In this document: piece by piece, positions 5,691-22,330 of the stretch
Numbering within the stretch: position 1 is the stretch's first letter
Layout: each line of letters begins with the position of its first letter
IMG/VR virus record: IMGVR_UViG_3300032820_000121
Span: 1 to 24,186 of that record
Direction: 5' to 3' (one strand)
DNA: 24,186 nt
Source of the DNA: a virus
Translations under genes and position numbers: made by a program
The notes under the pieces: generated by a model
The model's input: the letters and a program-made list of their open reading frames with translations, nothing else
Told to the model about the DNA's origin: nothing
Databases searched by the model: none

Positions 5691-6340
5691 GAAACCCAGT
5701 CAAGGGCTTGGGAAACAATAGGAAATTGTTCTATAAAAATACTACGAACATTCTTAACAAGATCCATATGTTCTTTTTGTGTACCATGTGCAGACCGTAG
5801 ATCAATATAATGAATCCATGATCGTACTGAACCCGTCATATACAAACGAGTTGGTGTAGCAAGAGGAAGTACAAACCTAGCACACTCTTTTGCTATACCA
5901 GCATGAAGCATACTCTTATAGAGATCTATTCCTGCATCAAAATGCTTTCGCATTTCCTTGTTGAATCTATCAACCACTAGGGGATCTACATCATCAATAC
6001 TATTCTGTCTGTTCTTAGTATCTTGACTACGTAACTCAGGCAAAGGTATATGTTCCCGTAAATAAGAAACATCAGCATACCTCTGAGAAAACTCTTGGTA
6101 TGTGAATGAACGATGTCTTAGTATCTGGGCTGCAAGACCACGAGTAGTATTAATCTCTATCGTCATATGTGCCTGTTCAAAGACACTCCAATGCCCGTGC
6201 TTAATACAATAGGATAAAAGACCAGCAACCTTAGGATTGTCTTGATTATTAGGGTTACTCACACGAGCAACATACCCCATAGTCTTCTCAGCATCAGGGG
6301 TTACACTTACAAGTTTAATCTGCGTATCCATCGTCGTCAT
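5687..6340 (-). CDS. thyX: ThyX flavin-dependent thymidylate synthase
   Basis: Makes dTMP from dUMP using FAD and methylene-tetrahydrofolate, supplying thymidine for phage DNA. 217 aa from the ATG at 6340. The signature RHRSFTYQEFSQRY (75-88) is the ThyX motif RHRxxSxxExSxRY with Thr in place of the first Ser, and HGHWSVFEQA (48-57) is the second conserved block. The start is fixed by GAGG six bases upstream; the longer frame to 6400 adds residues with no family match. Its first codons overlap the upstream 58-aa gene in another frame by 26 bp, suggesting coupling. Confidence 0.95.
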   Translation of the reverse strand: MTTMDTQIKLVSVTPDAEKTMGYVARVSNPNNQDNPKVAGLLSYCIKHGHWSVFEQAHMTIEINTTRGLAAQILRHRSFTYQEFSQRYADVSYLREHIPLPELRSQDTKNRQNSIDDVDPLVVDRFNKEMRKHFDAGIDLYKSMLHAGIAKECARFVLPLATPTRLYMTGSVRSWIHYIDLRSAHGTQKEHMDLVKNVRSIFIEQFPIVSQALDWVS

Positions 6341-6491
6341 CAAAGACCTCATCGTAATCGGTAATTTTTCCTGCGAATGCTTTTGAATTTTGATAGGCAT
6401 CTACATCAGAATATACTTCTGATTCTAGTGCATCAACCAAAGACTTAAGATTTCTAACAATCAATTTAAGTTTTTCTCTGGAAGGATCCAT
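6315..6491 (-). CDS. Small acidic protein upstream of thyX
   Basis: 58 aa starting MDPSREKLKLIVRNL and ending in a strongly acidic tail (DYDEVFDDDDGYAD). It overlaps the thyX start by 26 bp in a different frame. There is no clear Shine-Dalgarno, but a sigma70-like promoter and a late-type element lie immediately upstream. The helical basic N-terminus plus acidic tail suggests a small binding or regulatory protein; the function is unknown. The placement, frame length and dense packing support it being real. Confidence 0.62.
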   Translation of the reverse strand: MDPSREKLKLIVRNLKSLVDALESEVYSDVDAYQNSKAFAGKITDYDEVFDDDDGYAD

Positions 6492-6502
6492 GGCTTTATT
6501 TT

Positions 6503-13363: not shown

Positions 13364-14446
13364 TTAACCTATTGCAGGAGCAATAAGTGCAACCTCAGAA
13401 GTCTCAGCAGTTGCCAAGTCTAATGGGAAGTTGTGAGCATTACGCTCGTGCATTACTTCCATACCAAGGTTTGCTCTGTTAAGAACGTCACCCCATGTAG
13501 GAACAACCTTACCAGATGCGTCTACGACTGACTGGTTGAAGTTAAATCCATTAAGGTTAAACGCCATTGTGCAGATACCCATAGAGGTTAACCACACACA
13601 AACCACAGGGAATACTGCGAGGAAGAAGTGAAGTGAACGAGAGTTGTTGAATGATGCATACTGGAAAATAAGTCTTCCGAAGTATCCATGTGCAGCAACA
13701 ATGTTGTATGTCTCTTCTTCTTGTCCGAACTTGTATCCATAGTTCTGAGAATCTAACCCAGTTGTTTCTCTGATTAGAGAAGAGGTAACAAGTGAACCGT
13801 GCATAGCACTGAATAATGCTCCACCGAACATACCTGCTACACCTGCCATATGGAATGGGTGCATGAGGATATTATGTTCTGCTTGGAATACGAACATGAA
13901 GTTGAACGTACCAGATATTCCAAGTGGCATTCCGTCAGAGAATGAACCCTGTCCGAAAGGATATACTAAGAATACAGCAAAAGCAGCAGATACAGGTGCT
14001 GAATAAGCAACACAGATCCAAGGACGCATACCTAAACGGTATGATAATTCCCACTGTCTTCCCATGTATGCTGAGATACCGATAAGGAAGTGGAAGATAA
14101 CCAACTGATAAGGACCACCATTATACAACCACTCATCAAGAGTAGCAGCTTCCCATATAGGGTAGAAGTGTAATCCAATTGCGTTGGAAGATGGAACGAC
14201 AGCACCAGAGATGATGTTGTTACCATATAAGAATGAACCAGCGACTGGTTCACGAATCCCGTCAATATCGACAGGAGGAGCAGCGATAAAAGCTATGATG
14301 AAGCAAGTTGTTGCGGCCAATAGGCATGGGATCATCAAGACACCAAACCAACCAACATAGATGCGGTTGTTTGTGCTTGTAACCCACTCGCAAAACTGAG
14401 GCCATCCAGCTAATAACCCTTGCTCTCTTTTTGAAAGAGTTGTCAT
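13364..14446 (-). CDS. psbA: Photosystem II D1 protein
   Basis: D1 of photosystem II, the subunit that turns over fastest in light; phage copies are thought to maintain photosynthesis during infection. 360 aa, full length and uninterrupted. Numbering is one above the standard. The sequence shows [11 protein letters not shown] with Gln at the position of residue 130 (the low-light D1:1 form rather than Glu), the redox Tyr in WICVAYSAP, Asp in GSFSDGMP, and the QB-site segment [14 protein letters not shown]. The C-terminal extension after LDLA ([15 protein letters not shown]) is processed in hosts. It has its own promoter, structured leader and terminator, so it is a monocistronic unit. Confidence 0.99.
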
Positions 14447-14691: not shown

Positions 14692-14698
14692 CTAAATA
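14692..14698 (+). promoter_or_regulatory. Late-type element before the exported-protein block
   Basis: GCTAAATAAC on the plus strand, 27 bp before the ATG at 14725. The leader has no Shine-Dalgarno. It resembles the T4 late octamer and is the only plus-strand copy among those noted, matching the only complete plus-strand genes. Confidence 0.5.
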
Positions 14699-14724: not shown

Positions 14725-15240
14725 ATGAAAAGGATTCTTCCTTTGATTATGTTAATGATGGCAGCAACTCCGATGGCGGCTCGTGCTGATTTAGTTCATA
14801 GATTGACAACTTCAACTCAGCTGACAGTTGATGCAGCTTATAGTTCTGGTACAAGGTTGGGCTCAACCTATACTGTAAGTGGTAATAACATTAAAGTGGC
14901 CTCAGAAAATGATCACTTTGGTAAACTAACTGCTGGTACGGCTACTGCGGCTGCAACCCTAGATGTTGGTGCATACGATATTAACACTAGCGGGTCGGCA
15001 TTCAGCTTTAGTGAATCCTGGACTCAAGGAGACGCGGTAAATCCCATTGGCACTGGTGTAGACGTATCAGCAGGTGTAGTAGCAGACATGCCAGCATACG
15101 GCACAAACTTTACGTCATCTGGTGGTGTTAAAGGAGACTTAGCTGGTACTATTACCTCCGCAGGTGTGATGACTTTAACGGCTGGTGGAGCAGGTACTTC
15201 GGCTACCGGACAATTTGTTAGCGAAATTACCGTGCGTTAG
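14725..15240 (+). CDS. Exported protein 1 of the plus-strand block
   Basis: 171 aa. Residues 1-21 are a Sec signal peptide: MKR, a hydrophobic core (LPLIMLMMAATP) and an ARA cleavage site before DLVH. The mature part is small, Gly/Ala/Ser/Thr-rich and beta-strand-like (STQLTVDAAYSSGTRLGS; TLTAGGAGTSATGQFVSEI). The start is the ATG at 14725 in front of the signal peptide rather than the frame back to 14641. I recall similar ADLVH-starting proteins in other cyanophages, but the function is unknown; a virion fibre, periplasmic or surface protein are all possible. Confidence 0.82.
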   Translation: MKRILPLIMLMMAATPMAARADLVHRLTTSTQLTVDAAYSSGTRLGSTYTVSGNNIKVASENDHFGKLTAGTATAAATLDVGAYDINTSGSAFSFSESWTQGDAVNPIGTGVDVSAGVVADMPAYGTNFTSSGGVKGDLAGTITSAGVMTLTAGGAGTSATGQFVSEITVR

Positions 15241-15250
15241 TAGTTAACTA

Positions 15251-15727
15251 ATGAAACGCTATATACCAATAACATTATTATTAATGTGTAGTAGTCTAGG
15301 AACTGCAGCGAATGCAGTTCCTGTAGTCCCTAATTTTACCCAGGGATCTATGCAGACTCAAACCACTACACAATCCCAAGTGACAGAAATTATCAATTCA
15401 GTGGATTATAGAACAGGATGGGAGTACACAGTAACCGGGGTAGGGGTAGACAACAACGGAGACGCATTGAATCCGACCCCCACTATGACAACCAATGCAG
15501 TAACAGCAGCCGTAGGAACAGGTCCCGACGACGCAATAGGGCTCTTAGACAGCTCCTTCGACTCACTAGATATGACCACAGCCGGAGAGTTTACAATAAC
15601 CGATCCGGGACAAGGATTTCAGTTTACCCAGAGTTACAACGGACCTGGGCTATCGAACCAGACCATAATAAAACGTGTAACCCAGATAGACAGCGTAACA
15701 AATACAACAAGTATCTTCTCAAATTAG
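15251..15727 (+). CDS. Exported protein 2 of the plus-strand block
   Basis: 158 aa. The first 22 residues form a signal peptide (MKRYIPITLLLM core, ANA cleavage site before VPVVPNF). The mature part is Thr/Asn/Gly-rich with QTQTTTQSQVTEIINSVDYRTG and a C-terminal VTQIDSVTNTTSIF, beta-like. It lies 10 bp after protein 1. GC content rises here: I count 34 of 60 bases at 15421-15480, well above the AT-rich surroundings. Its stop overlaps the start region of protein 3. The function is unknown; the shared signal peptide and tandem order suggest it works with its neighbours. Confidence 0.8.
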   Translation: MKRYIPITLLLMCSSLGTAANAVPVVPNFTQGSMQTQTTTQSQVTEIINSVDYRTGWEYTVTGVGVDNNGDALNPTPTMTTNAVTAAVGTGPDDAIGLLDSSFDSLDMTTAGEFTITDPGQGFQFTQSYNGPGLSNQTIIKRVTQIDSVTNTTSIFSN

Positions 15728-16986
15728 GAAAACAACTATGCCTACTCAGTGTCCTAGGTGCAACTGTAACCCCTGCGTATGCGGAAAACGTATCAGCCAC
15801 TGCTAATCCTATAGCCAACTCCTCTGGCTCAGTAACTAACCAGGCAATTCAGGTTTTACAAGGTCCTTATATAACTAACACTTATGGTAACCAGATAAGT
15901 TGCCAAGGTCCTACTGCTAACTTTACACCATATATTCAGTATAGTAACTCATGGAAGGATCCATTTGAGAGACATTATATGCAACCACAATATAATAATT
16001 CGGATTATACAGGACGAACCACCACCACAATGACAAGTGTGAAAAACTATCCTTGGTATGATGGATGGTTAAGAGGTCCTAATAATGCTGATGGTACAAT
16101 GGGGGACTTTATTCTAGACGATGATGGAAATAAAATACCTATTGAAGAAAATTGGTATAATGATTCTGTTAAAACAGATGCAAGTGGAAATATATTAACT
16201 GATGATGATGGAAATCCCATTCGCTATATTGAAGATGGTGCAGACATGGCAATCGAAGTCGAAGTAGATGGACCTGATGGTGTACCTGATAATCCTGGTC
16301 AAGTAATGTGGGAAAAACCAGTTCGTACTGAAATGAGTGCAAATAATAATTTTAACCTTGGTCTATCGGCTACCTTCTCTCTACCACTCGATAGAAAATT
16401 ACAGAACTTATGTAAGGAAGCCGCAACCACTCAGATAGCACAACAACAACAAATCACTGCTAACAAAAGATTAGACTTTGAAATAGCAAGACTTAAAAAT
16501 TGTGGTGAGCTCATGATGGCCGGAATAATGTTCCATCCTAAGTCACCTTATGCCTCTATATGTGCTGACGTTATAGTAACAAATCCACCAGGAACTTTAA
16601 CTCCTCATACTCACGACTTCCCTAGACCTATATTCAATGAGGATACTACTCAACCTAATGAGGAGGGTACAAAACAAATACAACAACAAACCCCAATAGA
16701 AGCAAAGGGTACTGCTGAAGATTTAGGAACTTATTCTATTGGTTCTCCTTCTTCTTCCTCTTCGAGTGCTCCTTCGCAAAATTTATCCCCAGAAGTCCCT
16801 TCTTCACCCGATACTCATTCGTCTTCAACTCCGATTGAGTCGGACGGTAAGGAGTCTTCCCAAGCTTCTTCTGGATGGTTCCGATGGCCTTTTTCACGGC
16901 AGGCTTCACCACCTTCAGAAGTAGATCAGCCAGCGGCTTTGCTAGGAGGGCCGATCCAGTTGCCACCGTCGCAATCGCTGCCGTAG
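15724..16986 (+). CDS. Exported protein 3, start codon unclear
   Basis: About 420 aa. The first 20 residues from the TTA at 15724 read as a good signal peptide (LGKQLCLLSVLGATVTPAYA, then ENVSAT), but no ATG, GTG or TTG lies nearby in this frame; the first in-frame ATG is 306 bases upstream, inside protein 2. The body has Tyr/Trp/Asn-rich sequence (YIQYSNSWKDPFERHYMQPQ), Asp-rich loops (DDDGNKIP, DDDGNPI), a helical middle (AQQQQITANKRLDFEIARLKNCGELMMAGIMFHP) and a Ser/Pro-rich tail. The last 251 bp are antisense to the 17662 gene. A frameshift, non-standard start or sequence error could explain the start. Confidence 0.7.
   Translation, partial: LGKQLCLLSVLGATVTPAYAENVSATANPIANSSGSVTNQAIQVLQGPYITNTYGNQISCQGPTANFTPYIQYSNSWKDPFERHYMQPQYNNSDYTGRTTTTMTSVKNYPWYDGWLRGPNNADGTMGDFILDDDGNKIPIEENWYNDSVKTDASGNILTDDDGNPIRYIEDGADMAIEVEVDGPDGVPDNPGQVMWEKPVRTEMSANNNFNLGLSATFSLPLDRKLQNLCKEAATTQIAQQQQITANKRLDFEIARLKNCGELMMAGIMFHPKSPYASICADVIVTNPPGTLTPHTHDFPRPIFNEDTTQPNEEGTKQIQQQTPIEAKGTAEDLGTYSIGSPSSSSSSAPSQNLSPEVPSSPDTHSSSTPIESDGKESSQASSGWFRWPFSRQASPPSEVDQPAALLGGPIQLPPSQSLP
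15738..15806 (+). CDS. Possible 22-aa cysteine-rich peptide
   Basis: An ATG with AGGA eight bases upstream opens a 22-codon frame containing six cysteines (CPRC, CNC, CVC and a final C). It lies in a different frame inside the signal-peptide region of protein 3. It may only be the by-product of a one-base shift relative to that gene. Confidence 0.2.
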   Translation: MPTQCPRCNCNPCVCGKRISHC

Positions 16987-17662
16987 TCGCTACAACTTGA
17001 GGTGCAGGAAGAAACTGTTCTACTGCTCCTATATCCTCATATAAAGTTACACATATTTTTACACCATCAGGATTCTTAGGATCCCTTTGCAATTCAAATC
17101 CACTGACCTTCTCTGTCTGATTCTGTGCTACGTCTCCTAAACGTGGAGCATTAGGACCAGGACAAGGAGGGTCTTCTAGTGTCTGCGAGGGAGTACTAGG
17201 AGGTTCAGGACTAGCACCTGGTGGTGATGGTGGTGCTGGTGGAATTTTTTGTGGTTCAAACTCTTGTTCTTCTTGGGGTGGAGTGATATTTTCTATCTTT
17301 AATTTACCAGGATCATAATCAAGTGGTCTAAAATATGGTTGCACCCCTGCATTAGAATCGCACAGTACTACATTTGCTCTAGGGTCATCAGTTACTTGAC
17401 TCTCATTAGTTCTTCTCGCATTCTCTTGATGAACCTCCACACAACCAGGCATTTCAACAATAGGTTTCTGTATATCCACTACCACAGAAGGTTCTACAGG
17501 AATAGAAGCAGAAGGTTCCATCATCCATATTCTCTGATCTGCAATCTGCATTATAGACGGAGTATTAATATAAGGTTGAGAGACATAGACATCACCAATA
17601 CCTACATCACCAATACCTACATTACCAACACCAACATTATTAATACGAATCTCAGGAATCAT
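16736..17662 (-). CDS. Proline-rich membrane-associated protein
   Basis: 308 aa. The N-terminus has pentapeptide-like repeats (NVGVG, NVGIG, DVGIG, DVYV). A long Pro-rich and acidic middle (PPAPPSPPGASPEPPSTP) follows, and then a C-terminal hydrophobic Ala-rich helix (about residues 227-250: VVATTAAIATVATGSALLA) with a basic tail (KKAIGTIQKKLGK ... SKRKKKENQ). I recall similar cyanophage proteins starting MIPEIRIN, function unknown; the Pro-rich spacer plus hydrophobic helix suggests an envelope-spanning or virion protein. Its end overlaps exported protein 3 on the other strand. Its ATG overlaps the upstream stop (TAATG). Confidence 0.8.
   Translation of the reverse strand: MIPEIRINNVGVGNVGIGDVGIGDVYVSQPYINTPSIMQIADQRIWMMEPSASIPVEPSVVVDIQKPIVEMPGCVEVHQENARRTNESQVTDDPRANVVLCDSNAGVQPYFRPLDYDPGKLKIENITPPQEEQEFEPQKIPPAPPSPPGASPEPPSTPSQTLEDPPCPGPNAPRLGDVAQNQTEKVSGFELQRDPKNPDGVKICVTLYEDIGAVEQFLPAPQVVATTAAIATVATGSALLAKPLADLLLKVVKPAVKKAIGTIQKKLGKTPYRPTQSELKTNEYRVKKGLLGINFAKEHSKRKKKENQ
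17591..17635. repeat. 15-bp tandem repeat, three copies
   Basis: ATCACCAATACCTAC occurs twice in a row without change, then a third diverged copy. It encodes the VGIGD pentapeptide repeat at the N-terminus of the 17662 gene. In-frame expansion or contraction is possible. Confidence 0.85.
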
Positions 17663-17928
17663 TACCTTGTGGGAGTTGTCTCTCTATAATCGCCCTTAGG
17701 ATCTGGTTTTGGATATGTTTTTACTGGTCCAGTTTTCTCTGGCCATGCTTCCCATAATACTTGCTTAAGTTCTTCTCTTACTATCATCCTAAGTTCAGTC
17801 TCTTCTGCCTGTGCTCTCTTCTGAGGACCACCAGTTTGCTGATCTATAAGTGTATTGCCACCCACAAAAGCACCAGTACTTATTACAGTTGCTGCTGTTC
17901 CATAGGTGGCCATCTTTTGCAAATCCAT
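17662..17928 (-). CDS. Small membrane-anchored hypothetical protein
   Basis: 88 aa with an N-terminal weakly hydrophobic segment (YGTAATVISTGAFVGGNTLI), a charged helix (EETELRMIVREELKQVLWEAW) and a Pro/Lys-rich end (KTYPKPDPKGDY). It is coupled to the next gene (TAATG) and abuts the previous stop directly. Unrecognised. Confidence 0.72.
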   Translation of the reverse strand: MDLQKMATYGTAATVISTGAFVGGNTLIDQQTGGPQKRAQAEETELRMIVREELKQVLWEAWPEKTGPVKTYPKPDPKGDYRETTPTR

Positions 17929-18174
17929 TTATGCTTCTTCTTCCTTCTTACTATTAGAACTAATACCTTTCTCAGCAGCATAAAGTGCGAAACTCTTTGT
18001 TGCTAATCCTTGCATTGTTTCTTTAATTGCTTGAGTGTCTGCATCAGTACAGATATCCTCCTCAAAACAACCCACTACAGTTCCTGCAACGATAGCAAGT
18101 TCTGCTACGACTACTGCAAATACTAAACGGAATGCCCATAGACCACCGTTAAATCCTTTTGATAATGCTTTCAT
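17929..18174 (-). CDS. Small membrane protein
   Basis: 81 aa with one clear membrane helix (residues 13-35, LWAFRLVFAVVVAELAIVAG), two cysteines just after it (CFEEDIC) that could form a disulfide, a helical middle and a basic/acidic tail (SSNSKKEEEA). It ends directly at the next ATG. Function unknown. Confidence 0.74.
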   Translation of the reverse strand: MKALSKGFNGGLWAFRLVFAVVVAELAIVAGTVVGCFEEDICTDADTQAIKETMQGLATKSFALYAAEKGISSNSKKEEEA

Positions 18175-20683: not shown

Positions 20684-20886
20684 TCATTATCATCTCTATT
20701 AACAAGTTGCTTTCTTAAATTATCCATCATATCATTGGCATCAATAAGATTATCAATGTCTGCTAGGAAAGAAGCAATATGCTTGCTAATAAAAGGTTTC
20801 TCACTACGTGCTGCAAATGCTAAGGCATCACGTAGATCTTCCTGTGCGTCTCTTAAAGAGTCTTCTACTTGTTTAGATAATGTCAT
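20680..20886 (-). CDS. Helical conserved hypothetical protein
   Basis: 68 aa from the ATG at 20886, with GAGGAGG upstream and an ATGA overlap with the previous gene. All helical and acidic (VEDSLRDAQEDLRDALAFAARSEK; FLADIDNLIDANDMMDNLRKQL). Not recognised; likely a small helical bundle or coiled coil. Confidence 0.75.
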   Translation of the reverse strand: MTLSKQVEDSLRDAQEDLRDALAFAARSEKPFISKHIASFLADIDNLIDANDMMDNLRKQLVNRDDNE

Positions 20887-21506
20887 TTGATATCCTCCTC
20901 GACACATGCGTCGCTAAACTGTTCTGCTAAATCTCCACCTAAATCTGCACCCTGATCCATTCCAATCATCGACGCAGCACCTGCCAAAACCCAACCAATA
21001 AAAGGTATAGAGGTGAGACCAGAACCAACAGAAGCACCAACGCTACCGCCGACCATTCTTCCTGTTCCTTCACCACTACCTCGTGCTTTGATGCACTCAA
21101 TTGTTTTGGCACTAAGCTTCTTTTCGCCTTCACCTGTCAATCCTGATGGATCAATCCATGCACTTCGAGTAGATACTGGACCGTCATGATGCTCTGCACC
21201 ATCCATTGTATACTGTTTTACAATCTTAGTAGTAGGTTTACCACTAAACAATCCACCTTTTCCTTCTATTTCCTTAGTAGTTTGCATCACTAAAGGATCA
21301 TTTGCCCGATAGTTAATAGCATACCCTTCTTCATTTGCCTGAACACTATAAGAACTATACTCACTCACAGGAATGTTGAGTTGAGGGAACTTACTCTCTG
21401 GTTTCTTATTGGCAATGATACCAATCATCCCTAGATGAGAAAGACCAAGTAGTCCACCCAATCCAAGGGCAAACCACTTAGTCCATTTTACATCTTTAAT
21501 TTCCAT
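20883..21506 (-). CDS. Membrane protein with glycine-zipper segment
   Basis: 207 aa. One N-terminal membrane helix (residues 11-33, WFALGLGGLLGLSHLGMIGI), a soluble middle (YSVQANEEGYAINYRANDP; KPTTKIVKQYTMDG; LSAKTIECIKARGSG) and a Gly/Ala/Ser-rich C-terminal segment (MVGGSVGASVGSGLTSIPF IGWVLAGAASMIG) with a glycine-zipper look, ending acidic. GGAGGG lies six bases before the ATG. The family is seen in cyanophages as far as I recall, function unknown; an envelope-active or structural role is possible. Confidence 0.76.
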   Translation of the reverse strand: MEIKDVKWTKWFALGLGGLLGLSHLGMIGIIANKKPESKFPQLNIPVSEYSSYSVQANEEGYAINYRANDPLVMQTTKEIEGKGGLFSGKPTTKIVKQYTMDGAEHHDGPVSTRSAWIDPSGLTGEGEKKLSAKTIECIKARGSGEGTGRMVGGSVGASVGSGLTSIPFIGWVLAGAASMIGMDQGADLGGDLAEQFSDACVEEDIK

Positions 21507-21521
21507 GACGAACCCTCCGTC

Positions 21522-22019
21522 TTACATTTTGAATGTATCTGATGATTTGTCATCAACAGTACTTATTTTAATAGGTGCTTGCTCAATCTTAATTGTTTGA
21601 GTAGGACCAGTCTGTGATGCCTTTTCAATTAACATCTCAAGATCTTTCTTGCTGATGCCACCACCGCCACCGTTGCCGTTGCCGTTGCCGTTACCATTAC
21701 CATTCTGCATCTTCATAGTTCCGTCACCTTTCTTAGATGCAGTTTGAATTCCGAAGCTAGCTAAAACTCCTGTAAAAACTGAAGCTATAAAAGTTGGATC
21801 TATTTTTTGTTGTGGTACACCTGGAATGGCAACATAATTTAAAGTCAATATTCCACCGGACCAGACCAATACCCCAAGGCGAACAAATGTACTAATTATT
21901 GCTGCTTGTTCGTCAGCATCTGGAAGGATAGCATCTTTTAATTTTCCAAGAGGACCTTTCTTTTCTTTTACTTCCTCTTGAACTTCTTCTACTACTTCTT
22001 CCTTAATTTCTTCTGCCAT
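21522..22019 (-). CDS. Holin-like membrane protein with NG repeat
   Basis: 165 aa. The acidic N-terminus (EEIKEEVVEEVQEEVKEKK) precedes two hydrophobic segments (about 42-65, IISTFVRLGVLVWSGGILTL; about 76-92, FIASVFTGVLASFGIQ). Then comes a low-complexity NGNGNGNGNGNG plus five Gly, followed by a charged end. Two membrane helices with charged ends fit a holin-like or channel-like protein, but nothing proves it. It is preceded directly by a strong hairpin, and no Shine-Dalgarno is visible. Confidence 0.74.
   Translation of the reverse strand: MAEEIKEEVVEEVQEEVKEKKGPLGKLKDAILPDADEQAAIISTFVRLGVLVWSGGILTLNYVAIPGVPQQKIDPTFIASVFTGVLASFGIQTASKKGDGTMKMQNGNGNGNGNGNGGGGGISKKDLEMLIEKASQTGPTQTIKIEQAPIKISTVDDKSSDTFKM
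21670..21702. repeat. Hexanucleotide (NG) microsatellite
   Basis: Plus-strand period-6 repeat (CCGTTG units, then CCATTA-type variants) encoding alternating Asn-Gly in the 22019 gene. Each unit adds two residues in frame. Confidence 0.85.
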
Positions 22020-22063: not shown

Positions 22064-22330
22064 TTAAAAGTTAGGAGTAGCAGAAGGAAGTCCAGCCGCT
22101 GATTGAGGTGCCTTTGCTTGTGGAGCATCAGGAGCAAGATCATTAGTTCCTAAGGGAAGTGTATCTCCACCCAATCCACCACCAAGACCACCCAGTGCTT
22201 TCTCTGTGACGCTTTCTATGATTGCGTCCTTGTTAACGTAAACGTAAGCACCAGTGCCAACAACGGCAACAGATACAACAGCAGACGCAACAGCAAGTAC
22301 ATTAATTACTCTCTGAAATGGACAATCCAT
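22064..22330 (-). CDS. Small membrane protein, Gly-rich
   Basis: 88 aa: a membrane helix (residues 8-31, VINVLAVASAVVSVAVVGTG), the segment YVYVNKDAIIESVTEKA, a Gly-rich turn (LGGLGGGLGG) and a Pro/Ala-rich end. Unknown function; likely anchored with the C-terminus outside or in the lumen. A late-type ATAAATA lies 22 bp upstream, following a TATAAT-like box. Confidence 0.75.
   Translation of the reverse strand: MDCPFQRVINVLAVASAVVSVAVVGTGAYVYVNKDAIIESVTEKALGGLGGGLGGDTLPLGTNDLAPDAPQAKAPQSAAGLPSATPNF

Follow-up and report, generated by a model that had tools for sequence, protein, structure and literature searches.

A cyanophage gene block with two predicted Sec-exported proteins and a conserved overlapping gene, a possible late envelope module

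Do three tandem genes of a T4-like cyanophage encode three ordinary Sec-exported proteins, and what could such proteins do at the host envelope late in infection? This question is raised by the plus-strand block at positions 14725-16986 of a 24,186-base stretch of DNA, hereafter the window, which represents a virus record of a T4-like cyanophage. The T4-like source, proposed in an earlier note on this DNA, is borne out by the gene content of the window, which comprises psbA together with thyX-like, phoH, purN/purC-like, glutaredoxin-like, hli-like, pstS-like and gp32-like ORFs; names other than psbA and the PBP domain were assigned by reading the translations. No tRNA genes were found in the window. 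The same note had placed the block divergent from psbA, which is correct for the window (psbA, 13364-14446, minus strand), yet among 30 related loci of at least 6 kb psbA adjoins the block in only 3.

The three ORFs of the block are real genes. They belong to the families phrog_564, phrog_650/DUF6322 and phrog_848/1755, respectively, and each was matched in 404-408 of 50,697 phage records when the collection was searched by tblastn, with a second, more distant gene 3 query matching 443 records. The hosts of the matched phages are, nearly without exception, Synechococcus or Prochlorococcus. In P-SSM2 and P-HM1 the counterparts of genes 1, 2 and 3 are annotated as T4-GC 237, 236 and 235, and that of the neighbouring gene 4 as T4-GC 234. 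A host origin of the genes was considered and rejected: the scan of 84,980 prokaryote genomes returned 8 loci, each of which holds further genes of the phage cassette and therefore looks like a phage contig. These loci sit in MAGs, in a Prochlorococcus single cell and on a 188-kb contig of a Nonlabens isolate assembly. The sampled stretch of this contig (NZ_RMVE01000006.1, Nonlabens xiamenensis 1Q3) bears the whole cyanophage cassette and hsp20, for which reason it looks like a co-assembled cyanophage. The cassette was also seen in MAGs labelled Gammaproteobacteria, Euryarchaeota, Bacteroidetes and Chloroflexota.

Gene 1 (14725-15240, plus strand; 171 amino acids, T4-GC 237, sometimes annotated 'OMP1') and gene 2 (15251-15727, plus strand; 158 amino acids, DUF6322, T4-GC 236) both start with textbook signal peptides, predicted to comprise residues 1-21 and 1-22, respectively. 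The predicted cut lies between MKRILPLIMLMMAATPMAARA and DL in gene 1 and between MKRYIPITLLLMCSSLGTAANA and VP in gene 2. The calls were made with a crude signal-peptide rule and with alignments of relatives. Of the predicted window genes to which it was applied, the rule accepted genes 1 and 2 and an 81-amino-acid one-TM protein and no others; in S-SZBM1, where no cassette homologue was detected, it accepted 2 of 131 ORFs of at least 100 amino acids. In the alignments, the n-region, the hydrophobic core and the A-x-A motif were seen in nearly all relatives of either gene, so that both proteins show the basic n-region, hydrophobic core, A-x-A and conservation of Sec pre-proteins. The residue after the predicted cleavage site is an invariant Val (V23) in gene 2, and in gene 1 it is mostly either Asp or Gly. 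As judged from these sequence features, export by cleavable-type Sec signal peptides is well supported for both proteins. Moreover, the two genes are paralogues (hhalign probability 95.4, E 1.8e-8). The structure model of gene 2 is poor (pLDDT 56), and the beta-rich fold predicted for both proteins, modelled on gene 2 only, is of low confidence. Designed WRAP-T proteins appeared among the PDB profile matches of gene 2; they were taken as compositional and rejected as relatives. The 81-amino-acid protein (17929-18174) belongs to phrog_3189, and its match to a holin PHROG (E 0.03) is not significant.

The earlier note had ascribed Sec signal peptides with A-x-A sites to all three genes. This description fits genes 1 and 2, where the peptides are N-terminal and conserved, and fails for gene 3 (15418-16986, plus strand; 522-amino-acid ORF, phrog_848/phrog_1755, T4-GC 235, 'gp165'), in which the segment begins at residue 99. 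The ORF can be divided into a basic leader (residues 1-98), a Sec-like segment ending in AYA (residues 99-122) and a conserved domain predicted to be exported (residues 123-522). The Sec-like segment is encoded at 15712-15783 on the plus strand and reads YLLKLGKQLCLLSVLGATVTPAYA before the predicted cut, followed by EN. The hydrophobic segment is present in every locus with enough sequence, usually with A-x-A at its end and mostly with Glu, Gln, Ala or Asp as the next residue; hence a hydrophobic core and A-x-A are present, and the N-terminal location of a signal peptide is not. Near this segment, ATG, GTG and TTG are absent in most loci, as read upstream in the window and in 14 further loci. 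The gene 3 frame is open back through gene 2, in the -1 frame, as far as an ATG inside gene 2. In the window this ATG, at 15418 and 98 residues before the Sec-like segment, is the sole in-frame start, and gene 3 therefore has a basic leader of about 98 residues ahead of the segment. Across loci, 72-143 residues separate the internal ATG from the SATANP motif of gene 3. To regard gene 3 as a third ordinary Sec pre-protein is thus too simple, because it is an overlapping gene with a long leader that is predicted to be cytosolic. AlphaFold2 modelled strands at residues 153-319 and a helix at 326-367 with moderate to good confidence, and the leader with low confidence, as a disordered segment would give. 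The usable beta part and the 42-residue helix of this model yielded no significant PDB match; the best VIA-align rows match the single helix only.

In line with the late-type element that the earlier note had placed ahead of the block, CTAAATA is found at 14692-14698 on the plus strand, 33 nucleotides before the ATG of gene 1. This element is conserved: TAAATA or TATATA occurs at positions -44 to -21 relative to this ATG in 62 of 65 loci, against 3.7 expected from shuffling, as would be the case for T4-like late genes with a gp55-type late promoter upstream. For comparison, the late promoter of S-PM2 is NATAAATA, as quoted in PMC2984593. Late expression of the block is well supported insofar as it can be read from promoter sequence.

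The genes surrounding the block likewise point to the envelope. In 30 of 30 loci of at least 6 kb (29 IMG/VR loci and the window), genes 1, 2 and 3 face the convergent gene 4 (16736-17662, minus strand; phrog_570, T4-GC 234), which encodes a Pro-rich protein with one hydrophobic segment near the C-terminus and a basic tail. Beyond gene 4, many of the 30 loci carry genes for DUF6450, phrog_568 and phrog_605. In the window these correspond to a one-TM protein with a Gly-rich C-terminal part (phrog_605, 20883-21506), a DUF6450 membrane protein that is a candidate holin-like component (phrog_2714/721, 21522-22019), and a one-TM protein labelled 'plasmid stability' (phrog_568, 22064-22330), all on the minus strand. 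The last of these travels with the cassette, and its name looks misleading for a small one-TM protein of an envelope cassette. All cassette partners scanned in the window, except the one at 17662-17928, contain a hydrophobic segment or a signal peptide. Of 16 cyanophages, all except S-PM2 were described as carrying a hypothetical cluster of T4-GC 218, 219, 234, 235 and 237, which often occurs together with the 'plasmid stability' gene, and a functional link was suggested (Sullivan et al. 2010, PMC3037559). This cluster is made up of the genes described here; the portions of that paper available to us do not mention export, the conserved internal start, the podo- and siphovirus versions or the function.

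The cassette extends beyond T4-like phages, since the distant gene 3 query also matches T7-like cyanophages and siphoviruses. In the podoviruses NATL2A-133, NATL1A-7, SS120-1 and S-RIP1, genes 2 and 3 also overlap, their relative frame is unchanged and the ATGs lie on Trp codons of gene 2, and for the siphovirus MED4-117 the annotation itself gives a gene 2/gene 3 overlap of 139 nucleotides. DUF6450 is located directly 5' of gene 2 in the podoviruses, and in NATL2A-133 and P-SSP7 it is preceded by a Pro-rich one-TM protein that, by eye, resembles gene 4. The order in siphoviruses is DUF6450-gene 1-gene 2-gene 3, followed by convergent gene 4 and phrog_568; gene 4 (T4-GC 234) is present in siphovirus P-HS2. 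Genes 2 and 3 are hence accompanied by DUF6450 in T4-like, T7-like and siphovirus cyanophages, and T4-GC 234 occurs in myo- and siphoviruses. In the T7-like NATL2A-133 and P-SSP7, DUF6450-gene 2-gene 3 lies between tail-fibre-type genes and the small terminase gene. In T7, the holin gene 17.5 is located between the tail-fibre and small-terminase genes, and the spanin genes 18.5/18.7 just past the small terminase gene. Two of these genomes show irregularities. P-HS2 and MED4-117 are identical in the 500 nucleotides compared except for one T fewer in P-HS2, in a homopolymer just 3' of gene 2, which breaks the frame of the overlap; this difference is likely a sequencing error in P-HS2. In P-SSP7 (GU071093), gene 43 is gene 2, and the unannotated gap that separates it from gene 46 contains, at 5724-6496, a gene 3 homologue whose reading frame is interrupted, owing to either sequencing error or decay.

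What, then, might the proteins do? The earlier note had envisaged export during late infection and a role at the envelope, which stands for genes 1 and 2, given their signal peptides and the conserved late promoter, and has to be modified for gene 3, which is not an ordinary Sec pre-protein. Targeting of the module to the envelope is very probable. That the block represents, as a whole, a late-expressed and cyanophage-specific envelope module is a proposition we consider evenly balanced between right and wrong, and a role in lysis or egress, which we derive solely from genome position and membrane targeting, is a serious candidate that falls slightly short of an even chance. We prefer lysis or egress, a role that the earlier note had not put forward, to surface modification or a virion role on account of the late promoter and of where the genes lie in T7-like phages. 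For none of the cassette proteins did profile and family comparisons give a match to a known holin, endolysin or spanin family. Moreover, the module, if lytic, has to be replaceable, because it is reportedly absent from S-PM2 (PMC3037559, as far as the available text goes) and no homologue was found in S-SZBM1, of which roughly 149 of 178 kb were searched.

The strongest competitor, which we nevertheless hold to be rather unlikely, is that the module serves not lysis but the remodelling or shielding of the cell surface, in the sense of superinfection exclusion, receptor masking or altered permeability. The proteins are exported, several further ones are membrane proteins, the genes are conserved across phages that have hosts in common but unrelated virions, and the tentative beta-rich prediction for genes 1 and 2, taken from the gene 2 model, would also suit a surface function. 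However, exclusion is usually an early function, and a conserved late promoter together with a late-gene position in T7-like phages is less expected for it. In addition, no PADLOC family was matched, although PADLOC is not a direct test of exclusion. Still less probable is that the proteins are virion components which cross the envelope or join particles after lysis, as the earlier note had also considered. The late promoter would fit, and unassigned hypothetical proteins do occur in cyanomyovirus virion proteomes (PMC3037559, in the part available). Yet signal peptides direct proteins away from the cytoplasmic site of assembly, and the structural proteins named in the available part of Sullivan et al. 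2010 (PMC3037559) are T4-GC 15, 190 and 969, with 235-237 not among them; we thus found no support for this suggestion. The virion proteome of S-SZBM1 is uninformative here because no cassette homologue was found in the roughly 149 of 178 kb of this phage that were searched. A role in lysis or egress is more likely than one in the virion.

With lysis or egress as the preferred role, a comparison with known lysis genes is instructive. The spanin genes Rz/Rz1 of lambda and 18.5/18.7 of T7 are likewise overlapping, out-of-phase late envelope genes, and those of T7 occupy a position neighbouring that of the cassette in T7-like cyanophages. Unlike in spanins, no lipobox Cys follows the cleavage sites of genes 1, 2 or 3, and no sequence match was obtained; moreover, gene 3 starts in the -1 frame and extends far past the end of gene 2. 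Membership in the spanins fails because of the missing lipobox. As to gp17.5 of T7 and two-TM holins, DUF6450 likewise is a membrane protein of small size that seems to contain two hydrophobic segments and is encoded between tail-fibre and small-terminase genes in T7-like cyanophages. It differs in matching no holin family, and a holin role is put forward as a candidate.

The internal start of gene 3 bears signs of selection. The dual-coding overlap of gene 2 with the -1 frame leader of gene 3 covers 310 nucleotides in the window (15418-15727, plus strand), and across 78 non-redundant loci its length ranges from 166 to 325 nucleotides (median 310). In 74 of these 78 Kyanoviridae loci, the ATG is created by a Gly-Trp pair of gene 2 encoded as GGA TGG, and the other 4 have a later ATG, likewise over a Trp codon. 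Resampling of synonymous codons of gene 2 predicts 597 stops in the -1 frame of the overlap (7.6 per locus), whereas none was observed in the 78 loci; in the 5' part of gene 2, upstream of the ATG, 280 stops were observed versus 307 expected. In addition, we scanned the viral collection for the peptide DYRTGWEY in a codon-blind manner, allowing GGN and ACN, which gave at least 80 loci. Among the matches listed, all 80 Gly codons are GGA, the codon that creates the ATG, and all 80 Thr codons are ACA; the corresponding sequence around the internal ATG (15418-15420) is ACAGGATGG at 15413-15421 on the plus strand, with invariant synonymous choices. Among 72 unique complete cases listed, 71 have no stop before gene 2 ends, and in 69 the frame carries on into the gene 3 motif. 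The sole locus of the 72 with a -1 frame stop in gene 2 is L181. As the two sets have some contigs in common and related phages are not independent, we give counts instead of a P value. Selection maintains an open second frame downstream of a conserved start, as in an overprinted pair, and gene 3 is, as read from these sequences, almost certainly an overlapping gene with a conserved start within gene 2.

As an alternative to its own start, a programmed -1 ribosomal frameshift in gene 2 that leads into gene 3 and yields a gene 2-gene 3 fusion would agree with the invariable -1 relation of the two frames and with the lack, in most loci, of a start near the Sec-like segment. However, frameshifting would not account for a conserved ATG at the point where the open frame begins, made by invariant synonymous bases, nor for the other ATG found further along in the loci that lack the usual one. 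By eye, no conserved slippery heptamer was seen near either end of the overlap, and the second hydrophobic segment of a fusion would be wrongly oriented for cleavage by signal peptidase, so that we regard this route as very improbable. We give hardly any credence to a start of gene 3 at a non-canonical codon by the Sec-like segment, with the open -1 frame as a by-product of gene 2 codon usage: it would suit a leader for which no constraint was detected other than openness and some hydrophilicity, but it is contradicted by the missing stops with their change at the ATG, by the invariant GGA and ACA among the matches listed, and by the lack of a shared near-cognate codon at the segment.

Initiation at the internal ATG leaves the question of what is selected in the leader. 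Four-fold synonymous divergence of gene 2 is not lowered inside the overlap, being the same inside and outside, and the leader sequence is therefore without detectable conservation. Wobble T in gene 2 falls from 27.5% to 12.5% in the overlap. The leader is somewhat more hydrophilic than expected from stop-free resampling at background codon use (mean z -2.5); the same resampling revealed no extra charge beyond that given by its codon make-up. Amino-acid constraint on the overlapped part, as expected of an overprinted pair, was not seen, and the composition is near that expected from the absence of stops. An open frame with unreduced divergence implies that selection maintains openness and hydrophilicity, not a specific leader sequence. 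A dual-coding region of about 300 nucleotides that is open across many genomes while its amino-acid sequence is free represents an unusual evolutionary case.

We propose that a single late transcript would give rise to all three gene products. Those of genes 1 and 2 would be exported and cleaved, reaching the periplasm or the outer membrane, while gene 3 would be initiated inside gene 2 and inserted into the membrane through its internal Sec-like segment. Gene 3 might then be cleaved, with removal of the leader, or remain anchored with the leader in the cytosol. As infection ends, the three products would work on the host envelope together with DUF6450 and gene 4, and most likely contribute to its opening. 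It is conceivable, if doubtful, that marine cyanophages of three morphotypes have in common a hitherto unrecognised apparatus for opening the envelope. One stretch of DNA would then encode both an exported protein and its overprinted partner, the latter with a cytosolic leader of about 100 residues, so that export and membrane insertion would be coupled at translation; the apparatus would replace spanins or work alongside them. The ocean's dominant photosynthetic bacteria are killed by cyanophages, whose genes for progeny release are poorly assigned in the open-licence PMC literature; a module common to T4-like, T7-like and siphovirus cyanophages, with a conserved late promoter in its T4-like versions, offers a concrete candidate set.

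In the same literature we found no published account of the conserved overlap or of the function of gp165-gp167. The protein families are known but uncharacterised, and neither the conserved -1 overlap nor the occurrence of the cassette across morphotypes appears to be described there. Existing annotation already draws genes 2 and 3 as overlapping in Syn9 (gp165-gp167), P-HM1 and MED4-117 (CPWG_00048-00050). In P-SSM2, NATL2A-133 and others, however, the annotated gene 3 is cut short, and in P-SSP7 it is omitted, whereby the overlap pattern is hidden. Since gene 3 is misdrawn or missing in these genomes, mapping of transcriptomes and proteomes misses its N-terminus. At its other end, gene 3 overlaps gene 4 tail to tail in antisense, by 251 nucleotides in the window (16736-16986), 215 nucleotides in P-SSM2 and 4 nucleotides in P-HM1, and about 560 nucleotides of the gene 3 ORF of the window are also coding in another frame.
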